DNA of 64,000 nt from Anaerolineae bacterium. Its GTDB lineage: Bacteria; Chloroflexota; Anaerolineae; UBA4142; SHND01. The translations under genes were made by a program, and so were the position numbers. The stretch lies in assembly GCA_022072245.1 (NCBI GenBank), contig JAJVIA010000014.1:1-64000 (forward strand), written 5' to 3'. The first letter of the stretch is position 1, and each line of letters starts with the position of its first letter. Shown one piece after another: positions 24,456 to 35,849 of the stretch. The notes below the pieces were generated by a model, which did not search any database, was not told where the DNA came from, and saw only the letters and a list, made by a program, of their open reading frames with translations.

Positions 24456-24901
24456 TGAAAAGGCAAATTTTATTCCTATGCAGCGGCAATTATTATCGTA
24501 GTCGGTTCGCGGAGATTCTTTTCAATCACCTCGCGCAGGAAAATGAGCTGGCATGGCGCGCGCAATCGCGCGGCATTGTGGCGCAATGGAGCCGCAACCC
24601 GGGATCCATTTCGCCCGCCGCGCTAGCTGGCTTGCGCGCGCGCAACATTTCGCCCGATGTCACGCGGTATCCGATGCAATTGACGGAAACGGATTTGACG
24701 CGCGCCGAACGCATCATTGCCATGTACGAAGCGGAACATCGTCCGATGCTGCGCGCGTATTTTCCGCAATGGGAAAACAAAACTGAATTTTGGCGCATCC
24801 CCGATTTGGACGAAATGAATTCCGAAAACGCGTTGGCGCGGCTTGAGCAGAACGTGCGCGCGCTCACGCTCGCTTTGGCGCCCGCCAAACTTTTCCTTTG
24901 A
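24455..24901 (+). CDS. low-molecular-weight protein tyrosine phosphatase family
   Basis: The 148-residue product begins MKRQILFLCSGNYYRSRFAE. The P-loop C-x5-R-S (CSGNYYRS, about 9-16) is that of LMW phosphatases and related arsenate reductases, and the general acid Asp probably lies in RIPDLDEMN near residue 115. These enzymes dephosphorylate phosphotyrosine proteins, often in exopolysaccharide or peptide-modification clusters. It is translationally coupled to the gene before it and stands at the head of the ligase cluster, so it could counteract the HprK-like kinase downstream; that is an inference. Confidence 0.85.
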   Translation: MKRQILFLCSGNYYRSRFAEILFNHLAQENELAWRAQSRGIVAQWSRNPGSISPAALAGLRARNISPDVTRYPMQLTETDLTRAERIIAMYEAEHRPMLRAYFPQWENKTEFWRIPDLDEMNSENALARLEQNVRALTLALAPAKLFL

Positions 24902-24944
24902 ATCCGGTTGTATAATTGCACTATTCCACTCAGGAGTCGAAACC

Positions 24945-25862
24945 ATGACCAAAAAAATCGGCCTCATTATCGGACGCGAATGGTCGTTCCCCCCCGAATT
25001 TATCAAAGAGGTGAACCGCCGTGAGCAGGGCGTGATTGCGGAATACGCCAAACTGGGCGGCACGCGCATGGACGAGCCGTGCGAATATGCCGTGCTGGTT
25101 GACCGCATTTCGCACGAGGTGCCGTATTATCGTTCGTATCTGAAAAACGCGGTCTTGCAAGGCACGCATGTCGTCAACAATCCGTTCATGTGGACGGCGG
25201 ACGATAAATTTGTCGGCGCGTCGCTCGTGACGAAATTGGGTTTGGTGTCGCCCAAAACGGTGGCGCTGCCCAACAAAGAATATATTCCGGGCATCATTCA
25301 CAATGAATCGCTGCGGAATCTGGAATTTCCGATTCCGTGGGAGAAACACATCGAGTATCTCGGCGGATTTCCGGTGATTCTCAAAGACGCGCACGGCGGC
25401 GGCTGGAAACAGGTGTACAAAATCAACAGCATGGATGAATTGTGGCTGCGCTATAACGAAAGCGGTTTGCTCACCATGATTCTGCAAGAATTCATCCAAT
25501 GGGACAATTACATCCGCTGTATGTGTCTGGAGCAGAGCGATATTTTGGTCATGCACTATGACCCGTCCGAACGCAAATACGCGCGCCACAATTTGGACGC
25601 GGCGATGTACGAACGCATTTACAACGATTCGGCGCGTCTCGTGCGCGCGCTCGGCTATGACATGAATACGGTCGAATGGGCCATCCGCGACGGGACGCCG
25701 TATGCGATTGATTTCATGAATCCCGCGCCCGACATGGATATTTATTCGCTCGGCGAAGAATTTTTCAACTGGTGCGTTACGCACATGGCGGACATGTGCA
25801 TCAAGCTCGCGCTCAACCCGCGCCCGCAAATTAACGAAATGCGGTGGAATCAATTCTTTTAG
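24945..25862 (+). CDS. ATP-grasp ligase (first of cluster)
   Basis: The 305-residue protein MTKKIGLIIGREWSFPPEFI... has an N-terminal pre-ATP-grasp fold (EYAVLVDRISHEVPYYRSYL), then ATP-grasp elements FPVILKDAHGGGWKQVYKI and LTMILQEFIQWDNYIRC, and the metal-binding strand VEWAIRDGTPYAIDFMNPAP. ATP-grasp enzymes of this size ligate a carboxylate to an amine via acyl phosphate. CAGGAG precedes the ATG. Substrates are unknown. The next gene is a second ATP-grasp-like enzyme and a GCS2-type ligase follows, so a small peptide or amide metabolite is a plausible product. Confidence 0.85.
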   Translation: MTKKIGLIIGREWSFPPEFIKEVNRREQGVIAEYAKLGGTRMDEPCEYAVLVDRISHEVPYYRSYLKNAVLQGTHVVNNPFMWTADDKFVGASLVTKLGLVSPKTVALPNKEYIPGIIHNESLRNLEFPIPWEKHIEYLGGFPVILKDAHGGGWKQVYKINSMDELWLRYNESGLLTMILQEFIQWDNYIRCMCLEQSDILVMHYDPSERKYARHNLDAAMYERIYNDSARLVRALGYDMNTVEWAIRDGTPYAIDFMNPAPDMDIYSLGEEFFNWCVTHMADMCIKLALNPRPQINEMRWNQFF

Positions 25863-25930
25863 GTAAAACGCGGCAGGGAGCGCGTCGCACGAACGCAAGG
25901 CGCTGCCTGCCGCTTGTTCCTCAGACCCTC

Positions 25931-27289
25931 ATGTTACATCAAGCCATCGAAACCTACCACAATCTGCTCACGCCCGACGTGGCGCGCGAATCGTGGGCTC
26001 AACTGCAAGACCAAACCAAGCGACGCGGTTTGTATTTTGGCGCGCGCGATGTCGTGACGGTGCTGCGCCCGCGCTTTTTGACGACGGAACAATATCATTT
26101 TTTGCAAAACGCGATTCGCAGCGTCATGCCCGCGTTTCGCAAAGCGTACCACGCGGCGCTGGCGGATGAAACGGTGCGCGCGCAGTTTCGTTTGAACGAT
26201 TGGGAAGAGCGCATGGTCGCGGAAAAATTTGGTTTCCAAGAACCCAGCCCTTCCGCGCGCATGGATTCGTTTTATCTGCCCGAGCAGGGCGTCGTGCAAT
26301 TTACCGAATACAACGCCGAAATTCCCGCCGCGCAGGCGTACACCGACGTCTTGAGCCAAGTGTTTTACGGCTTGCGCGTGATGGGCGAATTTCAAAAACA
26401 GTACGAAGTGCGCCCGCTGCCGACGCGCAATCAGATGCTGCACGCGCTGCTCGACGCGTGGCGCCAATGGGGCGGCACGACGCGTCCGAACATTGCGATT
26501 CTCGATTGGAAAGAGGTGCCGACGTACAGCGAATTTGTATTGTTCCAAGAATATTTTCAAGCGCAAGGATATGCCGCCGAAATCGTGGATCCGCGCGCGT
26601 GCGAATATCGCAACGGCAAACTCACGGCGAACGGTTTCGAGATTCAGTTGGTGTACAAACGCGTACTCATTAGCGAGTTGGTCGAACGCGGCGATTTGGG
26701 TTTGGAGCATCCGGTGATTCGCGCCGTGCGCGATAACGCCGTGTGCATGGTCAATCCGTTCGCGTGTAAAATTCTGCACAAAAAAGCGTCGCTCGCCGTC
26801 TTGACGGATGAACGCAATCAAGCGCTCTTTGACGCGGAGGAATGGCGCGCGCTCCAAAAATTTATCCCGTGGACGCGCGTGTTGGAAGAGCGTAAAACGG
26901 TGTACAATGGCGCGCCAATTGATTTGATGCCGTTCCTCGCGCAAAACAAAGACGAATTCGTGGTGAAACCGAACGACGAATATGGCGGCAAAGGCGTAGT
27001 GTTGGGTTGGACCGTTTCGCAGAGCGAATGGGAACAATTGCTGCGCGACCGTTTGCAAGAGCCAAGCATCGTACAGCGCCGCGTCGCGCTGCCCGAAGAA
27101 CCGTTCCCCAGTTACGTGGACGATACGGTGCAAATTTATGACCGCATGTTGGACACGGACCCGTACATTTGGTACGGCGCGTTCATGTCGGGTTCGTTAT
27201 GTCGCCTGTCCACCGCCGCGCTGGTGAATGTGACCGCCGGCGGCGGCTCGACGGTGCCGACATTCGTAATTGAGCCGAGACGCAGTTGA
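25931..27289 (+). CDS. circularly permuted ATP-grasp-like protein
   Basis: The 452-residue protein contains VVQFTEYNAEIPAAQAYTDV, NIAILDWKEVPTYSEFVLF, the ADP-binding part DEFVVKPNDEYGGKGVVLGW, and ends LSTAALVNVTAGGGSTVPTF. Order and motifs resemble circularly permuted ATP-grasp and glutathionylspermidine-synthase-like enzymes, which form amide bonds. I place the start at the ATG 25931 (MLHQAIETYHNLLTPDVARE); a longer frame from 25844 runs through the intergenic region. The stop overlaps the ATG of the GT39 gene (TGATG). Substrate is unknown; the cluster context implies an amino-acid or polyamine ligation. Confidence 0.78.
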   Translation: MLHQAIETYHNLLTPDVARESWAQLQDQTKRRGLYFGARDVVTVLRPRFLTTEQYHFLQNAIRSVMPAFRKAYHAALADETVRAQFRLNDWEERMVAEKFGFQEPSPSARMDSFYLPEQGVVQFTEYNAEIPAAQAYTDVLSQVFYGLRVMGEFQKQYEVRPLPTRNQMLHALLDAWRQWGGTTRPNIAILDWKEVPTYSEFVLFQEYFQAQGYAAEIVDPRACEYRNGKLTANGFEIQLVYKRVLISELVERGDLGLEHPVIRAVRDNAVCMVNPFACKILHKKASLAVLTDERNQALFDAEEWRALQKFIPWTRVLEERKTVYNGAPIDLMPFLAQNKDEFVVKPNDEYGGKGVVLGWTVSQSEWEQLLRDRLQEPSIVQRRVALPEEPFPSYVDDTVQIYDRMLDTDPYIWYGAFMSGSLCRLSTAALVNVTAGGGSTVPTFVIEPRRS

Positions 27290-28611
27290 TGCCCCCGTCA
27301 AACGAATCCGCGTCCGCGCAAACCGTCGCCGCGCCGCGCGCTTGGCTGCGCCGCGAACAACGCACGCTGCTTTTGCTTTTGGGCATTTTACTTTTGGGTT
27401 TGTTTGTGCGCGGAATCTATGTCGGCGCGATTGTGAAATTTAACAGCGCGCCGTCGTACGACGGAATCTTTTTTAATCAACTCGCCCTCAGTCTGTTACA
27501 GGGCAACGGCATGACGACCGCCGACAATTTGCCGACGGCGTTTCGCACGCCCGGCTATCCGTTTTTTCTGGCGAGCTTGTACGCTCTGTTTGGTCCAAGC
27601 GCGACCGTTGCGCGCGGCGCTAATATCGTACTGGGCGCATTGACGGCGGTTTTGTTATTTCCGTTAGGCGTAGAATTATTTCGCCGTCGCCGTATCGGTT
27701 GGCTTGGCGCGCTGTTTGGCGCGCTGTATCCGATTCTGATTTATATTACCGGCGAAATATATTCCGAGATTTTGGCGATTTTCTTGGCGACGTTGGCGCT
27801 GGTTTTGTACGCCGCCGAGTTGCGCCGTCCATCGCGTTGGCGTCCGCCCTTGGCGGGATTGATTTTGGGCATAGAGTTGATGGTTCGTCCCAATATCGTC
27901 TTTGCGCTGCCCTTTATTGTCTTGTGGTTTTTTTTGTGCGCTACGCGTTCCCATGCTCTCCAGCTCGCCGCGTGGCTCGCGGTGATGTTGGCGCTCTTTA
28001 GCGTCCCGTGGAGCATTCGCAACTATGCGGTCTTTGGCGAATTTATTCCTTTGACCACGCAAGCGGGCGTAAAAATTTGGCAAGGCAATAACGCGTTGGC
28101 GGATGGCAGCGGACTCGAACCGACCCCGGAAACTTGGCGCGACGGACCGGTTCCTGACCGTTTCTTTATGGGCTGGAAAGCGTTGGGTGAACCAGAGAGC
28201 AGTCGCCGCTTTATGAATGTTGCGGTGACGTGGATGCAAACGCATCCCGTCGAGACGGCAATGCTCGTGCCGCAAAAAATTTTGCGTCTGTGGTCGCCCA
28301 TGTCTTTTACGACGCGCTCTAGTCGGCAATTGCCGCCCATCCCGTTTGAAATTCTACTGATGCCGTGGCTCATTTTTTTGGGGACGGCGCTGTGGGGAAT
28401 GATTGTCTATCGTCGGCAGTGGCGCAGGTTATTTGGCTTGTACGCTTTGCTCTTGGCGGTAAATTTGGAAGCGGCGCTGACGTTCGGCGGAACGCGCTAT
28501 GCTTTGCCGATGACGCCGGCTTTATTGCTCTTGAGCGCCGCGGGGATAGATTGGCTGTGGGTACGAATGGCGCCGCAACGATGGCGCCGCGCGGCGTTAC
28601 CGACCGCATGA
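27289..28611 (+). CDS. GT39-like membrane glycosyltransferase
   Basis: A 440-residue integral membrane protein with about ten or more hydrophobic helices. The first luminal loop has SYDGIFFNQLALSLLQGNGM with acidic residues, and FRTPGYPFFLASLYALFG is the classic R-x-P-G-Y-P signature of ArnT/PMT-type enzymes. They transfer sugars from polyprenyl phosphate donors to lipids or proteins on the outer face of the membrane. The start overlaps the stop of the preceding ligase gene. It could decorate the product of the cluster, or the cell envelope. Confidence 0.88.
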   Translation: MPPSNESASAQTVAAPRAWLRREQRTLLLLLGILLLGLFVRGIYVGAIVKFNSAPSYDGIFFNQLALSLLQGNGMTTADNLPTAFRTPGYPFFLASLYALFGPSATVARGANIVLGALTAVLLFPLGVELFRRRRIGWLGALFGALYPILIYITGEIYSEILAIFLATLALVLYAAELRRPSRWRPPLAGLILGIELMVRPNIVFALPFIVLWFFLCATRSHALQLAAWLAVMLALFSVPWSIRNYAVFGEFIPLTTQAGVKIWQGNNALADGSGLEPTPETWRDGPVPDRFFMGWKALGEPESSRRFMNVAVTWMQTHPVETAMLVPQKILRLWSPMSFTTRSSRQLPPIPFEILLMPWLIFLGTALWGMIVYRRQWRRLFGLYALLLAVNLEAALTFGGTRYALPMTPALLLLSAAGIDWLWVRMAPQRWRRAALPTA

Positions 28612-28647
28612 CACTGACGTTTCGACATTTCTGTAAAGGAGAGGGGT

Positions 28648-29760
28648 ATGCTTAAACCTCCATCGCTCAATATCGGCATCGAAGAAGAATATCAAATCGT
28701 GGACCCGCAAACGCGCGCATTGAAATCGTACATTACGCAAATGCTCGAAGACGGCAAAATGATAATGCGGGAATCCATCAAGCCGGAATTGCATCAAAGT
28801 ATGGTCGAGGTCGGGACGAATGTGTGCCAGACGCCCGCCGAAGCGCGCGCGGAATTGGTGCGGCTGCGGCGCGGCGTAATGGAACTCGCGGCGAAAAGCG
28901 GTTTGAAAATTGTCGCGGCGGGGACGCATCCCTTTTCGCATTGGGTCGAGCAAGAGATTACGCCGTTCGAGCGCTACATGGGCGTCAAGCAAGATATGGC
29001 GGAACTCGCGCAAAAACTTTTGATTTTTGGCACGCACGTTCACATCGGCATCGAAGATTTGGAATTTCGCGTGGACGCGATGAATATCGCGCGTTACATG
29101 ATGCCGCATGTGCTGGCGCTTTCGACGAGTTCGCCGTTTTGGGTGGGCCGCAATACGGGCTTGAAATCGTATCGCAGCATTATCTTTCGCAATTTTCCGC
29201 GCAGCGGTTTTCCGCCGACGTTCCACTCGTGGGCCGAGTTTGAAAATTTTGTCCAGGCGCTGGTGCGCGTCCACGCCATTCCCGACGGCTCGAAATTGTG
29301 GTGGGACGCGCGTTTGAATCCACGTTATCCGACGCTCGAATTTCGCGTGTGCGATGTGTGTACGCGCGTGGACGAAGCGGTGTGCATCGCCGCGATTTTT
29401 CAAGCGATTTGTTTCAAGCTGTGGAAACTGCGCCGCGACAATTTGAGTTTCCGCATGTACCCGCAAACCTTTTACGAAGAAAACAAATGGCGCGCGGTGC
29501 GCTATGGCATTGACGGCAAACTGATTGACTGGGGCAAGCAAGAAGAACTGCCCGCGCGCGAGTTGATTCGCGAAATGATTGAATGGTTCATCGGCGACGT
29601 GTTGGACGAACTCGGCACGCGCAAAGAGGTGGAATACGCGTTCAAAATTTTGGACGGCGGCACGAGCGCGGATCGACAATTGAGCGTGTTCAAAGAGACG
29701 GGTAGTTTGGAAGCGGTAGTGGATAATTTGATACGGGAGACGGAGGAGGAGGTACGATAG
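28648..29760 (+). CDS. GCS2-family carboxylate-amine ligase (YbdK-like)
   Basis: The 370-residue enzyme starts MLKPPSLNIGIEEEYQIVD, with the glutamate-rich metal site IGIEEEYQ typical of glutamate-cysteine ligase family 2. It continues with EVGTNVCQTPAEA, AGTHPFSHW, IFGTHVHIGIED, and LWWDARLNPRYPTLEFRVCD. These enzymes join a glutamate or similar carboxylate to an amine with ATP. Some members (EgtA, YbdK) work with glutathione-like metabolites. GGAGAGGGG precedes the ATG. It stands at the end of the ATP-grasp/GT39 sub-cluster and before the PqqD/HprK sub-cluster. Confidence 0.92.
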   Translation: MLKPPSLNIGIEEEYQIVDPQTRALKSYITQMLEDGKMIMRESIKPELHQSMVEVGTNVCQTPAEARAELVRLRRGVMELAAKSGLKIVAAGTHPFSHWVEQEITPFERYMGVKQDMAELAQKLLIFGTHVHIGIEDLEFRVDAMNIARYMMPHVLALSTSSPFWVGRNTGLKSYRSIIFRNFPRSGFPPTFHSWAEFENFVQALVRVHAIPDGSKLWWDARLNPRYPTLEFRVCDVCTRVDEAVCIAAIFQAICFKLWKLRRDNLSFRMYPQTFYEENKWRAVRYGIDGKLIDWGKQEELPARELIREMIEWFIGDVLDELGTRKEVEYAFKILDGGTSADRQLSVFKETGSLEAVVDNLIRETEEEVR

Positions 29761-29820: not shown

Positions 29821-30261
29821 ATGACCTCAAAATTTTTTAGAATCAATACGCCGCAGATCGTTCACCATACGATCGAGCAGGAAATCATTATTATTGATTT
29901 TGAGACCGGTTCGTATTTCAGTCTAACCGGTACGGGCGCGACGGTGTGGGAATGTTTGGCGCAAGTTGCGTCGCTCGACGATATTGTCGACGCGCTCATG
30001 GCGCAGTATGCGGGCGACCGCGCCGAGATTCGGCGCGACGCGGAACAATTTTTGAACGAATTAGAACGCGAGGCATTGATTGTGCCGTCCGCGACGCTGC
30101 CGGTCAAACCGTCGTCCAGCGCCGTGACGATTGCGGCGCCAAAAGCGCTTTTATCATTTCAGCCCCCGACGCTTGCCAAGTATACCGATATGCAAGACTT
30201 GCTGCTGCTCGACCCGATTCATGGAGTGGATGAACAGGGTTGGCCCGTCGCCAAGACTTGA
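29821..30261 (+). CDS. PqqD-like protein with leader/core-like C-terminal tail
   Basis: Of 146 residues, about 1-92 form a PqqD-like winged-helix domain (RiPP recognition element): INTPQIVHHTIEQEIIIIDF, YFSLTGTGATVWECLAQ, IVDALMAQYAGDRAEIRRDA and FLNELEREALI. A Ser/Pro linker leads to a tail containing PPTLAKYTD and then MQDLLLLDPIHGVDEQGWPV. P-x-L-x-x-Y-x-D-x-x-x-L is reminiscent of RiPP leaders bound by PqqD domains. Position next to a HprK-like kinase fits the predicted PqqD/HprK-related peptide modification systems. Whether the tail is the substrate is unproven. The ATG at 29821 is preferred to GTG 29815. Confidence 0.82.
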   Translation: MTSKFFRINTPQIVHHTIEQEIIIIDFETGSYFSLTGTGATVWECLAQVASLDDIVDALMAQYAGDRAEIRRDAEQFLNELEREALIVPSATLPVKPSSSAVTIAAPKALLSFQPPTLAKYTDMQDLLLLDPIHGVDEQGWPVAKT

Positions 30262-30312
30262 CGTTACGCTTGGCTTTGAATTGGCTAGAGCCGTACACGT
30301 TTTAAGGATTTC

Positions 30313-31374
30313 TTGCGCTTGACTGGAACCAGAACTGACGCCGCGCCGCGTATTTTTTTTGAACAGGTCTATGGCGCGTTTCAACGCGCGGAACAAGAGA
30401 TGGGCGCGCCCATTCAGCGGGATTATGCGATTGATGGGTTTGTCGTGCGTTTGCGCTTTGCAGGACCCGCGCTTGTTCCTTTGATTACGCCTGCTTTGGC
30501 GCATTTGGAAATGCCGCCGAATGCGCGTCGCGCCGATTTGACCATCTGTCTTTGGGACAGCGCTTCGACGCATACGCTCATGCCGCCGCGTCCGTGGGCG
30601 CAGGATGCCTGTCGCGCGCGCGGCGATGTGCGCGGTTTTAACGATACGCGTTCGCGCACGGCGTTGGCGGCGGATGTGGGCGCGGTGAGCGTTTTAGATT
30701 TGCAAGAAAATTTGGGCGTCTATTGGATTCGTGCGGGAGAGCAGCTGCCGACGTACGAACGCGGCGCGCCGCTGCGCGTGATGCTGCATTGGTGGATGCG
30801 CGAACGAAACCGTTTTTTAATTCATGCCGGAGCGGTGGGCCTCGACGACCGAGGCGTATTGTTGATTGGCAAGGGCGGCAGCGGAAAATCTACCGCTTGT
30901 GTGGCGGCGGCGCTGGCGGGCTGGCAATACGTCGCGGATGATTATTGTTTGCTCGCGTCGAACGGCGAACCCTATGTTCACAGTCTCTATAATTCCGCCA
31001 AATTGGATGACGCGGCGCTCAAAAATTTCCCCGCGCTCGAATCCGTCGTGCGTAATCCGTCCGAACGCGCCGCCGAAAAAGCGCTCTTGGATTTAGCCCA
31101 AGTTCCCGCCGCGCAGCTGACGCGGCGTTTGCAGCTGCGCGCGCTGGTCCTGCCGCGCGTCACGGGACAACGCGATACGCGGCTCGCGCCGATTGCTCCA
31201 TCCCAAGCGCTCCGGGCGCTCGCGCCGAGTTCGCTGTTTCAATTGCCCGGCACGGGCCCCGCCGAATTTTTTGCTCTGGCGAATTTGGCGCAGCAAACGC
31301 CTTGTTATTATTTGGAGGCAGGCACCGAATTGTCCCAGATACCTCAAACATTGCAAGCGGAGTTATTCTTATGA
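30313..31374 (+). CDS. HPr kinase-like ATPase (HprK-related)
   Basis: The 353-residue protein uses a TTG start with AAGGA seven bases upstream. Its C-terminal half carries the HprK-like nucleotide-binding fold: RFLIHAGAVGLDDRGVLLIG leading into Walker A GKGGSGKST (about 190-198), then YVADDYCLLASNGEPYVHSL. True HPr kinases phosphorylate a serine on HPr; relatives in RiPP clusters phosphorylate precursor peptides. The N-terminal half is unassigned. Its stop overlaps the ATG of the first GT2 gene (ATGA). Expected partner: the PqqD-like protein immediately upstream. Confidence 0.85.
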   Translation: MRLTGTRTDAAPRIFFEQVYGAFQRAEQEMGAPIQRDYAIDGFVVRLRFAGPALVPLITPALAHLEMPPNARRADLTICLWDSASTHTLMPPRPWAQDACRARGDVRGFNDTRSRTALAADVGAVSVLDLQENLGVYWIRAGEQLPTYERGAPLRVMLHWWMRERNRFLIHAGAVGLDDRGVLLIGKGGSGKSTACVAAALAGWQYVADDYCLLASNGEPYVHSLYNSAKLDDAALKNFPALESVVRNPSERAAEKALLDLAQVPAAQLTRRLQLRALVLPRVTGQRDTRLAPIAPSQALRALAPSSLFQLPGTGPAEFFALANLAQQTPCYYLEAGTELSQIPQTLQAELFL

Positions 31375-32060
31375 ACGCGCCATTAGCCAGCGTCGTGATG
31401 ATTGTGCGTAACGGCGAGCTCTTTTTTCGCCAAGCCATCGAGAGCGTATTGGCGCAGGATTATCCTGCGTACGAGATATTGGTGGTTGACGGACAGTCCA
31501 CCGATGGCACTGCGGACATTGCGCGGGCGTATCCGCAAATTCGTTATTTTGTACAAACGGACAGCGGCACCGCGAATGCGTACAATCTGGGCATTGCCCA
31601 AGCGCGCGGCGAGTTGATCGCCTTTCTCTCGTACGATGATTTGTGGACGCCAAACAAGTTGAGCGCGCAAATCGGTTATCTACTTGAACATCCCGAAATT
31701 CAATACGCTGTCGCACACTGTAAATTTTTTTTGGAACCAGAATATCCTTTTCCGCTCACACTACGGCCCATGATTTTGGAGCGCGCCCTGCCGCTGCGGA
31801 TTATGGAGACGCTTCTTGCGCGCAAGCAAGTTTTCGCCCAAGTGGGTTTGCTCGATCCGCAGCTGAGTCCGGCGGACGATGTGGACTGGTTTATGCGGGC
31901 GCACGACCTTGGCGTACCCATGGCCGTATTGGAACAAACTCTTTTGTACAAACGCCTCCACGATATGAATACATCGCTCAATGCTCCGGATGGACGGCAA
32001 TTGATTTTTCGCGTCTTGCAGCGTTCCACCTCGCGCAAACGCGCATTGGCTCAAGCGTAA
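31371..32060 (+). CDS. family 2 glycosyltransferase, first copy
   Basis: The 229-residue GT-A protein begins MNAPLASVVMIVRNGELFFR and has LVVDGQSTDGTADIA (UDP-sugar-binding Asp), then AFLSYDDLWTP in place of the usual DxD (S-Y-D-D). The late acceptor site reads LSPADDVDWFMRAHDLGV. Enzymes of this type add a sugar from a nucleotide donor to a lipid, polysaccharide or protein. It is coupled to the HprK-like gene by a 4-nt overlap. Confidence 0.88.
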   Translation: MNAPLASVVMIVRNGELFFRQAIESVLAQDYPAYEILVVDGQSTDGTADIARAYPQIRYFVQTDSGTANAYNLGIAQARGELIAFLSYDDLWTPNKLSAQIGYLLEHPEIQYAVAHCKFFLEPEYPFPLTLRPMILERALPLRIMETLLARKQVFAQVGLLDPQLSPADDVDWFMRAHDLGVPMAVLEQTLLYKRLHDMNTSLNAPDGRQLIFRVLQRSTSRKRALAQA

Positions 32061-32126
32061 ATCTGATTGTACGCGGCTGACGCCTCGACGCCAGCCGCGC
32101 CGTCAATCATCGTGCGTAAAAAAAGT

Positions 32127-32822
32127 ATGTCCACCGCTCCAGCGCTAATCAGCGTTATCATTCCGGTCTATAATGGCGCGCCGTATTTGGGCGAAGCGCT
32201 TGCCAGCGTCTTGGCGCAGACGCGGCTGCCCTTGGAAGTGATTGTCGTTGACGATGGCTCGACCGATGCGAGCGCAAACGTGGCGCGTCAGTTTCCGGTG
32301 CGATATGTCTGGCAAACGCACAATGGCGCAAGCGCCGCGCGGAATCAGGGCATTGCGCTGGCGCAGGGTTCATTTTTCGCGTTCCTCGATGCGGACGATG
32401 TTTGGATGCCTGAAAAACTCGCGCAACAGACCGAATCCTTTGCCGCACAACCGAACTTGGAGGCGGTGTTTGGACAGATGGAGCAGTTCGTGAGCCAGGA
32501 TAGCGTTGACGCGATGCCGCCCGCCCGTTTTGCCAGAGAGGTTCGCGACAGCTATGCGCCGGGTACGATGTTGATTCGACGCGCCGCGTTTATGCGGGTT
32601 GGTCTGTTTGCGCCGCAGTGGCGCGCGACGGAAGCGGTTGAATGGATGATGCGCGCGCGCGCGAAAAACCTACAGAATATTATGCTGCCGCAGCTGGTGT
32701 TGCGCCGCCGCGTACACGCCAATAATACAACTTGGCGCGAGCGCGCAACCGTAGACCGCGAATATGCTGAAATGATCCAAGCCGCGTTGACGCGTCAAAG
32801 ACAAGCGCGCCCGGAACGCTAA
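32127..32822 (+). CDS. family 2 glycosyltransferase, second copy
   Basis: The 231-residue protein MSTAPALISVIIPVYNGAPY... shows the GT2 signatures VIVVDDGSTDASANVAR and AFLDADDVWMPEKLAQQ (DxD), with a C-terminal ATEAVEWMMRARAKNLQ helix. I start it at 32127 because this gives the classic N-terminus; the frame is open from 32067. It is similar to, but clearly distinct from, the preceding GT2. The donor and acceptor are unknown; together with GT39 it suggests a glycosylated product. Confidence 0.88.
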   Translation: MSTAPALISVIIPVYNGAPYLGEALASVLAQTRLPLEVIVVDDGSTDASANVARQFPVRYVWQTHNGASAARNQGIALAQGSFFAFLDADDVWMPEKLAQQTESFAAQPNLEAVFGQMEQFVSQDSVDAMPPARFAREVRDSYAPGTMLIRRAAFMRVGLFAPQWRATEAVEWMMRARAKNLQNIMLPQLVLRRRVHANNTTWRERATVDREYAEMIQAALTRQRQARPER

Positions 32823-32837
32823 CAGCTATATTTTTTG

Positions 32838-32930
32838 ATGCGGTCGGCTGAATATGCTTGTGACGCGCAAGTTTTTAAATTCCGCGGCTGGAATGGACGC
32901 GGGCGTTTCGCGGGATTGAATACGCGATGA
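32838..32930 (+). CDS. possible 30-aa peptide ahead of the ABC exporter gene
   Basis: An ATG at 32838 opens a frame of 30 codons (MRSAEYACDAQVFKFRGWNG then RGRFAGLNTR), whose stop overlaps the ABC transporter start by 4 nt (ATGA). The peptide has one cysteine and a Gly/Arg-rich end, like some exported peptides. No ribosome-binding site is visible, so it may only be a chance frame or a coupling leader. Confidence 0.25.
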   Translation: MRSAEYACDAQVFKFRGWNGRGRFAGLNTR

Positions 32931-34693
32931 ATCTGACGATTTGGCGTTGGAGTTGGCGCTGGCTGCGTCTTGGGCCCCGCACGCTTGGATGGCTGGTGAT
33001 GCTAACGCTGTTGCAATTGGCGGCGATTTTGCTCATCGCGCTCGTTTTCCAGGATTTGCAGGGCGGCGCGTCGGTCGGCGTAACCGCCTTGCCGCGCGTG
33101 GCGCTCATGGCGGTAGTGGGCGCGGCAAGCGCGGTCGGATTGTTTCTGGCGCGCGTTGCCGGCGGACACGCGGCGGCGACAGCCGTCACCCGGCTGCGCG
33201 TCGCCGCGTTGGAATTGCTCTATACGCGCGCCCAAGCGTTCTATGCGCGCTCAAACAGCGGTAATCTCCATTCGCTTTTGATTTGGGATACGGAACGCGC
33301 GTTCAAATTCTTTGAAGCGCTTTTAGGCCAAATGTTGGCGGCTTTGACTGTCGGCTTGGGTATTGTCGTGGCGTTGGTATGGTTAAATCCCATGCTGGCG
33401 TTGCTCTTGGCGTTTATCGCGCCGTTTCTTTTTTTGGCGCAGCGTTATTCGCTGCCAATTCTGCGGCGCGATTTTGAGCGACGCAACCAAGTGTTTGGTA
33501 AATTCAACAGCGACATGCTCGCCGTGTTACAGCTTTTACCGCTGACGCGCGCGCAGACGGCTGAAGCGCAAGAGCTGGCGAGTCAAACGCGCGCGCTGGC
33601 TGGTTTGCAAAAGAGCGTGGAAGCTTTGCTGACGCAGCAGGCGTTACAGCACGCGCTTCAAAATGGAATCTTGGTGACGGTGGTCGGCGTGATTTTGGTA
33701 ATTGGCGGCAGTCAGGTTGCGGCTGGGCAAATTACGGTTGGCAGTTTGCTCGCGTTCAACGTCATCTTGTTGGCGCTGCGACGCTACGCCCAAGACGCTA
33801 TCGCGGTAACGCCCACGCTTGTCGAAGGTTATCACGCGTTGGAAACGCTGCATCATTTTTTTACCGCGTCGCCGCCCGAACCGTATGCTGGGACACGACG
33901 CTGCCGCTTGCGCGGAGAATTTAGTCTGCGCGATGTGACGTTTGGCTATCACGACCATGCGCCGATTTTGCGCGGCGCGTCGCTGACGCTGGCGCCGCAC
34001 TCGTTCACCGCGCTAGTTGGCCCGAATGGCGCCGGTAAAACAACCCTAGTCAATCTGTTGCTCGGTCTGTACAAGCCGTGGCAAGGCGCGCTGACTGCCG
34101 ATGGTTATGCGTATGTAGAATTGGATATGCACGCGGTGCGCCGTCAAATTGGCGTACTGCCGCAGGACCCCCTTTTGTTGGACGGCACCATCTGGGAAAA
34201 TATCACGTACGGTATGCCCGATGCGTCCGCAGAGGCGACGCTGGCTGCCGCGCAGAGCGCCGCCGTGGATGTTTTTGTGCGCGAGTTCGCGCAGGGATAT
34301 CAGACTCTTGTGGGCGAAAGGGGCGTGCGTTTGTCGGGAGGACAGCGGCAGCGCATCGCGCTGGCGCGCGTTTTACTGCGTCAGCCCAAACTGCTCATCC
34401 TTGACGAACCGACAAATCATTTGGATGCCGCCGCCGCATGGCAATTGATTGAAAAGATTTTGCCCGACGAAAATTTGCCGTCGGCGCGCCGCACTGCGGC
34501 GCCGACGATTCTGTTAATCACGCACGATTTGACGTTGGCGCGCTGCGCGCAGCAGCAATACCTTTTGAAACAAGGACGGTTCGAACGCCTTGCGCCCGAA
34601 ATGTTGGACCGCGTTTTGACGCGTAACGCGCAGCCATTCCAAGTAGAACCGATTTCTGACCCGAGCGCGACGGTGCGGGGCGAACATGTCTGA
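32927..34693 (+). CDS. ABC exporter, membrane and ATPase halves fused
   Basis: A 588-residue ABC half-transporter. About six hydrophobic segments occupy residues 15-300 (first: WLVMLTLLQLAAILLIALVF), followed by the nucleotide-binding domain with Walker A GPNGAGKTT (about 365), Q-loop LPQDPLLLDG, signature LSGGQRQRIALARVLL and Walker B LLILDEPTNHLD, then the switch ITHDLTLARC. No N-terminal C39 protease domain is present, so it does not itself cleave a double-glycine leader. Drug, lipid or peptide export are all possible; cluster position favours export of the cluster product. Its end overlaps the next start by 8 nt. Confidence 0.92.
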   Translation: MNLTIWRWSWRWLRLGPRTLGWLVMLTLLQLAAILLIALVFQDLQGGASVGVTALPRVALMAVVGAASAVGLFLARVAGGHAAATAVTRLRVAALELLYTRAQAFYARSNSGNLHSLLIWDTERAFKFFEALLGQMLAALTVGLGIVVALVWLNPMLALLLAFIAPFLFLAQRYSLPILRRDFERRNQVFGKFNSDMLAVLQLLPLTRAQTAEAQELASQTRALAGLQKSVEALLTQQALQHALQNGILVTVVGVILVIGGSQVAAGQITVGSLLAFNVILLALRRYAQDAIAVTPTLVEGYHALETLHHFFTASPPEPYAGTRRCRLRGEFSLRDVTFGYHDHAPILRGASLTLAPHSFTALVGPNGAGKTTLVNLLLGLYKPWQGALTADGYAYVELDMHAVRRQIGVLPQDPLLLDGTIWENITYGMPDASAEATLAAAQSAAVDVFVREFAQGYQTLVGERGVRLSGGQRQRIALARVLLRQPKLLILDEPTNHLDAAAAWQLIEKILPDENLPSARRTAAPTILLITHDLTLARCAQQQYLLKQGRFERLAPEMLDRVLTRNAQPFQVEPISDPSATVRGEHV

Positions 34694-35849
34694 GCAACCC
34701 GGCGGAGTTTTGCTGCCGACGCCGACGCAAGAATTACTCTTGCACGCGGCGCTGGGTTCGGGCGAAGCGGCGCGGCGCGCCTTTTACGAATGGAAAGCGC
34801 AGACCGATTTAGCGCAGCCGTTAGATTTTGGAGTCTATCGCATCCTGCCGCTGCTGTCTCACAATCTGCGCGCGTTGAACGTCCAAGACGCGTGGCAGAG
34901 CCGTTTCAAGAGCGTCTATCGCCGCGAATGGGCGCATACGCAAATGATATTCCAGACGATGGCAAAAGAACTGCGCGCGCTGCATGAGGCGGGAATCAAG
35001 ACGCTGGCGCTCAAAGGCGCGCCGCTGACTTTATTGTATTATCAAGATTACGGTCTGCGGCCCATGAGCGATTTTGATGTCCTCGTGCCGACCGCGCAGC
35101 GCCGCGCGGCAATTGAACGGCTCACGCGCGCGGGGTGGTATCCGCGCGAGCGTTCGCTGTCCAATCTGACCGACAATGTTTTCGCGGTTCACGATGGATG
35201 GAATTTTGAAAACGCGCGCCGAGAACAATTTGACTTGCATTGGCATGTGCTGTTAGAGTGTCGCAATCAGGCGATGGACGATGATTTTTGGGCGCGCAGC
35301 ATCCCGCTTCAAATCGCCGACGTTGAAACGCGTACGCTGCATCCGACGGATCATTTGCTTTTTGTATGCCTTCACGGCGTAAGATGGAATATCGTATCGC
35401 CTATGCGTTGGATTCCCGATGTCCTGATGATTTTGCGCGGCGCGGCAGCGCAAATCGAATGGGCGCGGCTGCTTGCGCTGGCGGAAAAGTTTCGCCTGAA
35501 TTTGCGGCTCGCGCTGGCGCTCAATTATTTGAACGAACAATTTCAAGCGCCCATCCCAACCGATTTTTTGCAGGCGTTGAACCGAATTCGCGTGTCCGAA
35601 CGTGAACGGCAATTGTATGCGGCGCTGATTGCGCCGCCGTCTTGGTACGCGGGCATCCGGGCGCACTGGTATCGCTATCGCTTTGATTTGGAATTAGAAG
35701 GCAAATCGAATCCGGTGTCCCGCTGGTTTGGTTTTCCCCGGTATTGGCGGCGCGCCAAAGCGCTCGCCCCCGGCGAAATGCCCCGTTGGTTTTTCACGCG
35801 CAGTTTCCAACGTTTTTCCGCGTGGCGCCAAGCGCGGGCTGACCCGTAA
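34686..35849 (+). CDS. nucleotidyltransferase-fold protein (NTP_transf_5 type)
   Basis: The 387-residue protein has the motif LALKGAPLTLLYYQDYGLRP followed by MSDFDVLVPTAQRRAAIERL, in which G-A-P and the D-x-D (SDFDVLV) pair match the uncharacterised nucleotidyltransferase family PF14907. A second conserved patch, FDLHWHVLLECRNQ, and HPTDHLLFVCLHGVRW follow. Such proteins recur beside PqqD, HprK-like and glycosyltransferase genes, but their reaction is not known. The start overlaps the ABC transporter gene by 8 nt, so the two are co-translated. Confidence 0.85.
   Translation: MSEQPGGVLLPTPTQELLLHAALGSGEAARRAFYEWKAQTDLAQPLDFGVYRILPLLSHNLRALNVQDAWQSRFKSVYRREWAHTQMIFQTMAKELRALHEAGIKTLALKGAPLTLLYYQDYGLRPMSDFDVLVPTAQRRAAIERLTRAGWYPRERSLSNLTDNVFAVHDGWNFENARREQFDLHWHVLLECRNQAMDDDFWARSIPLQIADVETRTLHPTDHLLFVCLHGVRWNIVSPMRWIPDVLMILRGAAAQIEWARLLALAEKFRLNLRLALALNYLNEQFQAPIPTDFLQALNRIRVSERERQLYAALIAPPSWYAGIRAHWYRYRFDLELEGKSNPVSRWFGFPRYWRRAKALAPGEMPRWFFTRSFQRFSAWRQARADP

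Follow-up and report, generated by a model that had tools for sequence, protein, structure and literature searches.

A lasso-type RRE fused to a conserved peptide tail and inherited with one subfamily of HprK-like kinases

The window (the whole 64,000-nucleotide stretch of DNA analysed) encodes a PqqD-type RRE protein that ends in a conserved peptide tail. The pairing of this tail with a PqqD domain spans at least three bacterial phyla, nearly always with the same kinase, and the tailed proteins form a real family, a variant of the known peptide modification by RRE, HprK and NTP_transf_5 proteins. We propose, with a probability of about 0.4, that the protein is an RRE to which a precursor-like peptide is tethered, and that the end of this peptide would be the substrate of the enzymes encoded in the same cassette. 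The features of the cassette are as follows.

29821..30261, + strand: tailed PqqD/RRE protein, 146 aa (ORF with ATG; PF05402; nearest structures are lasso and LPP RREs)
29815, + strand: alternative GTG start of the tailed PqqD gene (ORF)
29881..30081, + strand: PqqD/RRE domain, residues 21-87 (complete Pfam domain match)
30082..30156, + strand: variable linker, residues 88-112 (12.4% mean pairwise identity over region 88-113; length varies)
30157..30192, + strand: leader-like part of the tail, FQPPTLAKYTDM, residues 113-124, [FYW]xxPx[LVIF] type (motif in 19/33 members)
30187..30246, + strand: near-invariant tail end, DMQDLLLLDPIHGVDEQGWP, residues 123-142 (58.6% mean pairwise identity)
30313..31374, + strand: HprK-like kinase of the tail-linked subfamily, 353 aa (TTG start; TIGR04352, 63 bits; co-inherited with the tail)
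31371..32060, + strand: glycosyltransferase family 2 (GT2; PF00535; the ATG overlaps the kinase stop as ATGA; the listed ORF opens at TTG 31302; at most tailed loci a GT2 gene adjoins that of the kinase)
32067..32822, + strand: second glycosyltransferase family 2 (similarity to cassette GT2 proteins)
32927..34693, + strand: MsbA-like ABC exporter with membrane and ATPase domains (PF00664, PF00005; in some tailed cassettes only)
34686..35849, + strand: NTP_transf_5 nucleotidyltransferase (PF14907, E 1e-37; 8-bp overlap with the exporter gene; recurs in tailed cassettes)

Architecture and conservation of the tailed protein

The first-pass annotation had described a PqqD domain followed by a linker and a tail, with an HprK-like kinase 51 bp downstream. 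Both statements held, the coordinates being right and the quoted tail residues exact (the PqqD ORF ends at 30261 and the kinase ORF starts at 30313). Pfam search gave a complete PF05402 match (1-67/67, residues 21-87, E 2e-18). When the PDB was searched with a profile of the PqqD family, TbiB1 (4e-16), PbaB1, TfuB1 and LppB ranked ahead of the PqqD of the PQQ pathway. The protein therefore combines a complete PF05402 domain with kinship to leader-binding RREs (TbiB1, E 4e-16), and from these relatives we assign its domain to the lasso-type (B1-like) RREs. RREs bind separate leader peptides in trans, and TbiB1, a complete RRE of a 91-aa chain, has no tail. The tail was ruled out as a piece of the PqqD fold, since the Pfam domain stops at residue 87 and a variable linker lies between. 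An AlphaFold2 prediction from the single sequence (mean pLDDT 40) recovered only the secondary structure of the RRE and was uninformative for the tail.

The whole tail of the window protein (residues 113-142) is FQPPTLAKYTDMQDLLLLDPIHGVDEQGWP, written out also as SFQPPTLAKYTDMQDLLLLDPIHGVDEQGWPVAKT. It carries the motif F113-x-x-P116-x-L118-x-x-Y121-x-D123-M124; the P-x-L pattern reported at first pass had the correct residues but overlooked the aromatic F113 that opens the motif. Aligning the tail across homologues, as had been suggested, placed its end far above the linker in conservation: over 31 non-redundant tailed proteins, mean pairwise identity was 27.6% in the PqqD domain, 12.4% in the linker, 25.5% in residues 114-122 and 58.6% in residues 123-142. 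D131 and P132 were kept in 31/31 proteins, and D123, H134, G140 and W141 in 30/31. No Pfam or NCBIfam model matched the tail, its exact strings did not occur in the literature searched, and viral contigs, PHROGs, PADLOC and a search of the PDB with the tail profile gave nothing useful. The tail marks out a protein family that these catalogues do not list.

Distribution, origin and co-inheritance with the kinase

The tail pattern was not random. In positive genomes the tail profile matched only PqqD C-termini (E 1e-20 to 6e-8), with one degenerate second copy at E 7e-4; chance-level matches in the window's phylum (E 0.02-0.1) were short, partial and in unrelated frames. The window's phylum is probably Chloroflexota, to judge from a TbiB1-type sequence (L009, G158) that belongs to it. 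Profile searches found the tail in 7/301 genomes of the window's phylum (ten proteins), in 4/349 sampled Pseudomonadota genomes and in 19/297 genomes of one pseudomonadotan order, which looks alphaproteobacterial by gene content. It was also encoded on a cyanobacterial (Crinalium) plasmid. The fusion had been called unusual, and it is, but other genomes carry such fusions too. Inspection of the reading frames of the matches placed the tail invariably at the C-terminus of a PqqD protein, one per protein and never free-standing. Degenerate tails occurred at two loci only, L040 (G217) with DPPMPGVMDFPW and L116 (G786) with DPIHGLDAQTGKKSK; D-P is retained and a kinase adjoins in both.

In a tree built from the PqqD domain columns alone, with the tail excluded, all 33 tailed domains fell on one side of a branch with support 95/91 and in 96% of bootstrap trees, in a tree of few columns and many weak forks. 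By this tree, the tailed PqqD proteins share a single origin. The window protein shared a group with the protein of the Crinalium plasmid and with members of G045 and G734, a pattern suggestive of horizontal transfer. L097, a tailed cassette on a 6.5-kb contig (C1218) of G734, a genome that belongs to the pseudomonadotan order, reflects either a recent transfer or a misbinned contig.

The window kinase scored 63.3 bits against TIGR04352 (HprK-related kinase A), under the cut-off of 200, and two further cassette kinases scored 24 and 39 bits. H171, the Walker A motif with K192, and D209-D210, residues of the type found in lasso and LPP kinases, were invariant in 12 cassette kinases; with these His-Lys-Asp-Asp residues intact, the cassette kinase is probably active on something. 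Within the order, a kinase profile gave nearly full-length matches (E 9e-38 or better) in the 19 tailed genomes and in no other of the 297. In the window's phylum, matches at E 1e-103 or better occurred in 6/7 tailed genomes and in 0/294 others. Kinases of tail-negative genomes gave partial, far weaker matches. The odds of such co-occurrence by chance were about 1e-30 in the order and about 1e-11 in the window's phylum; since the profile derives from cassette kinases and the genomes compared are related, these figures show inheritance as a unit, not mechanism. The exception was G089, which encodes a tailed PqqD and no kinase of the tail-linked HprK subfamily. Its tailed locus (L038, contig C75) has no cassette gene nearby.

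Within 1.5 kb of the 36 tailed loci, HprK was present at 23, GT2 at 26, NTP_transf_5 at 9, and lasso B2 and AsnB at 0. The corresponding counts at 22 tailless loci (two of them longer stretches) were 0 for GT2, 8 for B2, 4 for AsnB and 6 for weak HprK matches. On wider stretches, HprK, GT2 and NTP_transf_5 were together present in most tailed cassettes. The cassettes of G352, G356 and G424 consisted only of the tailed PqqD, HprK, two GT2 genes and NTP_transf_5, amid unrelated metabolic genes and without an exporter of the window type. Upstream in the window (24843-29760) lie genes for a RimK-like ATP-grasp protein, a circularly permuted ATP-grasp protein, a membrane protein and a GCS2 carboxylate-amine ligase. 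The last, directly before the PqqD gene, was ruled out as a conserved cassette member, as it is absent from other tailed loci. The window's genome also holds a second, different PqqD-plus-peptide architecture on contig C2. Each of two tandem proteins there (L062 and L063, at 60220 and 61768) begins with a PqqD-like domain, contains a signal-like or membrane segment with RRDFLVKAG and closes in a short C-terminus rich in Cys; 6 kb upstream of them, at C2:54399, lies a weak match to an archaeal-type signal peptidase.

The leader-like segment and searches for a separate precursor

PbaB1 and LppB bind leaders through [Y/W]xxPx[L/V] (PMC13381572). As claimed at first pass, the tail contains a leader-like pattern: the leader-type RRE motif is present and stands in register with the leaders of tailless lasso loci (tail, FQPPTLAKYTDMQDLL; L072, YSPPELTEYGSIESVT; L017, YETPKLVDYGSITDRT; L030, YEQPLLLEHGALRDVT). 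In the tails, L, I or V stands in place of the Thr that precedes cleavage in lasso precursors, which is consistent with the absence of the B2 protease and of an LPP-type signal peptidase. The aromatic-xxP-L motif was complete in 19/33 members and has been lost in 14/33, so docking in the groove cannot be universal. An aromatic residue in the groove went with the tail motif (15/19 against 1/14; Fisher p 6e-5 overall, 0.005 within the order), a correlation that amounts to about one event and is no independent test, because the losses lie mostly in one clade of the tree; groove-tail co-evolution was therefore discounted as independent evidence. The tail end was still conserved where the leader-like part was lost.

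No free copy of the tail was found with the tail profile in any reading frame of 630 kb around 33 tailed genes. A leader-pattern scan found no ORF for a separate lasso-type leader precursor in the tailed cassettes and only two implausible ORFs far from the cassette. The same lasso-type pattern does find separate precursors in the tailless loci L017, L030 and L072. After YxxPxL the tail continues differently from the LPP precursor motif YxxPxVLxHQxIxFETxxS.

The lasso B2 protease (PF13471) was absent from the window's genome (G000, 80% complete) and from G045, G089 and G418; other tailed genomes encode a B2 elsewhere, at none of the 36 tailed loci within 1.5 kb. An asparagine-synthetase-type cyclase likewise stood beside the RRE at 0/36 tailed loci within 1.5 kb, with one exception at longer range: at L104 (G811, C115), the sole tailed locus with a possible cyclase, genes for an HprK-like protein and an asparagine synthase come after the tailed PqqD. 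Searches of 28 genomes or records for an archaeal-type signal peptidase (SpI) gave no TIGR02228 match above the cut-off, and the sub-threshold matches sit away from the tailed genes. Of the two observations named at first pass as speaking against a peptide-like tail, its being part of the PqqD fold and a separate precursor in homologous clusters, neither was seen.

Candidate roles of the tail

In the mechanism that we propose, a lasso-type RRE would have been fused once, in the ancestor of the family, to the peptide formerly bound by that RRE. The first half of the tail ([FYW]xxPxLxx[YF]xD[ML]) would occupy the groove of its own RRE, in cis or in a dimer, and the invariant segment xLDPIHxVDxxGWP would thereby take the position that the core has in a separate precursor. 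The HprK-like kinase, GT2 and NTP_transf_5 proteins would act on this segment, and we lean narrowly towards phosphorylation and/or glycosylation of the segment or of adjacent residues. As the cassette encodes no leader peptidase, the peptide would remain on its carrier. A tethered peptide is suggested by the nearest solved PqqD relatives, which are leader-binding lasso and LPP RREs; by the RRE-bound motif in the first tail segment, which aligns residue for residue with separate leaders; and by the failure to find a separate tail or leader-type precursor, some cassettes being minimal. It is also suggested by the relatives of HprK and NTP_transf_5 that modify lasso and LPP precursors, together with the intact residues of the cassette kinase. 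An HprK phosphorylates an LPP precursor (PMC13381572), and lasso precursors receive first phosphate and then hexose from relatives of HprK and NTP_transf_5 (PMC9266682).

The characterised HprK-like RiPP kinases modify Ser (PMC13381572, PMC9266682), and LppK acts on Ser only, S3T and S3Y not being phosphorylated (PMC13381572). In the alignment of tailed members, no conserved Ser/Thr was found in the invariant tail end. A Ser/Thr phosphosite in the tail was rejected, as no position is conserved and many members have Asp or Gly in place of T122; from residue 122 to the end, L070, L099 and L101 contain no S/T/Y. A C-terminal Ser/Thr occurs in 11/33 members, the window protein included, and is not conserved. 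Simple phosphorylation by HprK is thereby weakened. The built-in leader and core suggested at first pass stood in so far as the tail is precursor-like and always fused, with no separate lasso- or LPP-type precursor found at tailed loci by the tail-profile and lasso-type leader scans, but lost ground on this point. The lack of a conserved Ser/Thr, the Ser-only action of LppK and the 14/33 members without the full motif all argue against a tethered substrate. Conservation that is higher in the core than in the leader is also atypical of RiPPs, cofactor-type ones excepted, and counts against it as well.

Because of these phosphosite and motif-loss limits, a docking peptide, the other option raised at first pass, is about as likely as a modified core and comes directly behind it in our rating. 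The invariant DxxDLLLLDPIHxVDxxGWP would then recruit the HprK-like kinase, and perhaps GT2 and NTP_transf_5, to an unlinked peptide, glycan or lipid carrier as the substrate. Near-invariance without a conserved hydroxyl residue resembles a protein-binding motif, the tail and the HprK subfamily are co-inherited almost perfectly (19/19 in the order, 6/7 in the window's phylum), and the tail end is retained where the leader-like part is gone. However, no cassette contains a candidate substrate gene, G089 is tailed yet lacks an HprK of the subfamily, and docking alone leaves the leader-like first half unexplained. It is improbable that the tail is an autoinhibitory pseudo-leader that blocks or gates the groove against a separate precursor while the invariant end serves as a clasp: the leader-type motif in 19/33 members and an RRE domain akin to groove-binding RREs would suit this, but such a precursor was not found at tailed loci, the groove-binding motif is not the most conserved part, and 14/33 members lack it in full. 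An ordinary lasso or LPP cluster with an unrecognised precursor and peptidase, the tail being decoration, is largely refuted, for although the enzyme set is LPP-like (RRE, HprK, NTP_transf_5 and MsbA-like exporter, also amid polysaccharide genes), B2 was absent from the window's genome and within 1.5 kb of all 36 tailed loci, no signal peptidase match exceeded the cut-off in 28 genomes or records, the leader-type scan succeeded only in tailless loci, and the conservation of the tail would be left unexplained.

LPP clusters comprise an RRE, an HprK kinase, an NTP transferase, an MsbA-like exporter and a SipW-like peptidase (PMC13381572). With these LPP (linear polyphosphorylated peptide) RiPPs the tailed cassettes share a discrete lasso-type RRE, an HprK-like kinase and an NTP transferase, as well as the MsbA-like exporter (in this window), glycosyltransferase surroundings and the lack of a macrolactam cyclase. 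They differ in that no SpI-type leader peptidase was found in them, that the lasso-type leader scan gave no separate precursor to match LppA with its YxxPxVLxHQxIxFETxxS, and that an invariant RRE-fused tail is present instead. LPPs are described as restricted to Bacillota (PMC13381572), whereas the tailed systems occur in other phyla, Bacillota genomes lying outside this sample. Paeninodin and pseudomycoidin, phosphorylated or glycosylated lasso peptides (PMC9266682), share with them a B1-type RRE, an NTP_transf_5-type nucleotidyltransferase, the [YW]xxPxL leader pattern and an HprK-like kinase with the His-Lys-Asp-Asp residues; the tailed loci lack B2, the asparagine-synthetase cyclase (an asparagine synthase occurs in L104 only), a recognisable separate precursor and the conserved C-terminal Ser. 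As the RRE and kinase fit both types, the peptidases do not and no separate precursor was found, we file the cassette under neither LPP nor phosphorylated lasso peptides. The SynChlorMet and HprK-related-A/B cassettes (NCBIfam TIGR04248/04249/04352/04355) likewise pair a PqqD-like with an HprK-like protein. The window proteins, however, fall far under the cut-offs of those families. In fused borosins, the precursor is fused to its own modifying enzyme. If the tail is a substrate, the peptide to be modified would similarly lie covalently within a biosynthetic protein, though here fused to a recognition element, not an enzyme, and in unrelated protein families. The tailed cassette has the look of a peptide-modification system of a type not described before.

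In the strongest form of the tethered substrate, which we regard as rather doubtful, the RRE would be its own substrate carrier, its constant LDPIHxVDxxGWP being phosphorylated and/or glycosylated by the dedicated kinase, glycosyltransferases and nucleotidyltransferase without ever being set free; if so, the product would be a modified protein (e.g. a glycan primer or a cofactor-like group), not a free peptide. Further members can be sought with the signature D-P-[IV]-H-x-V-x(3,4)-G-W-P at a PqqD C-terminus, and genome-mining tools that expect a separate precursor will miss such clusters. A widespread RRE family that carries its own leader-like and invariant peptide, together with one kinase subfamily, presents a defined substrate or docking site.
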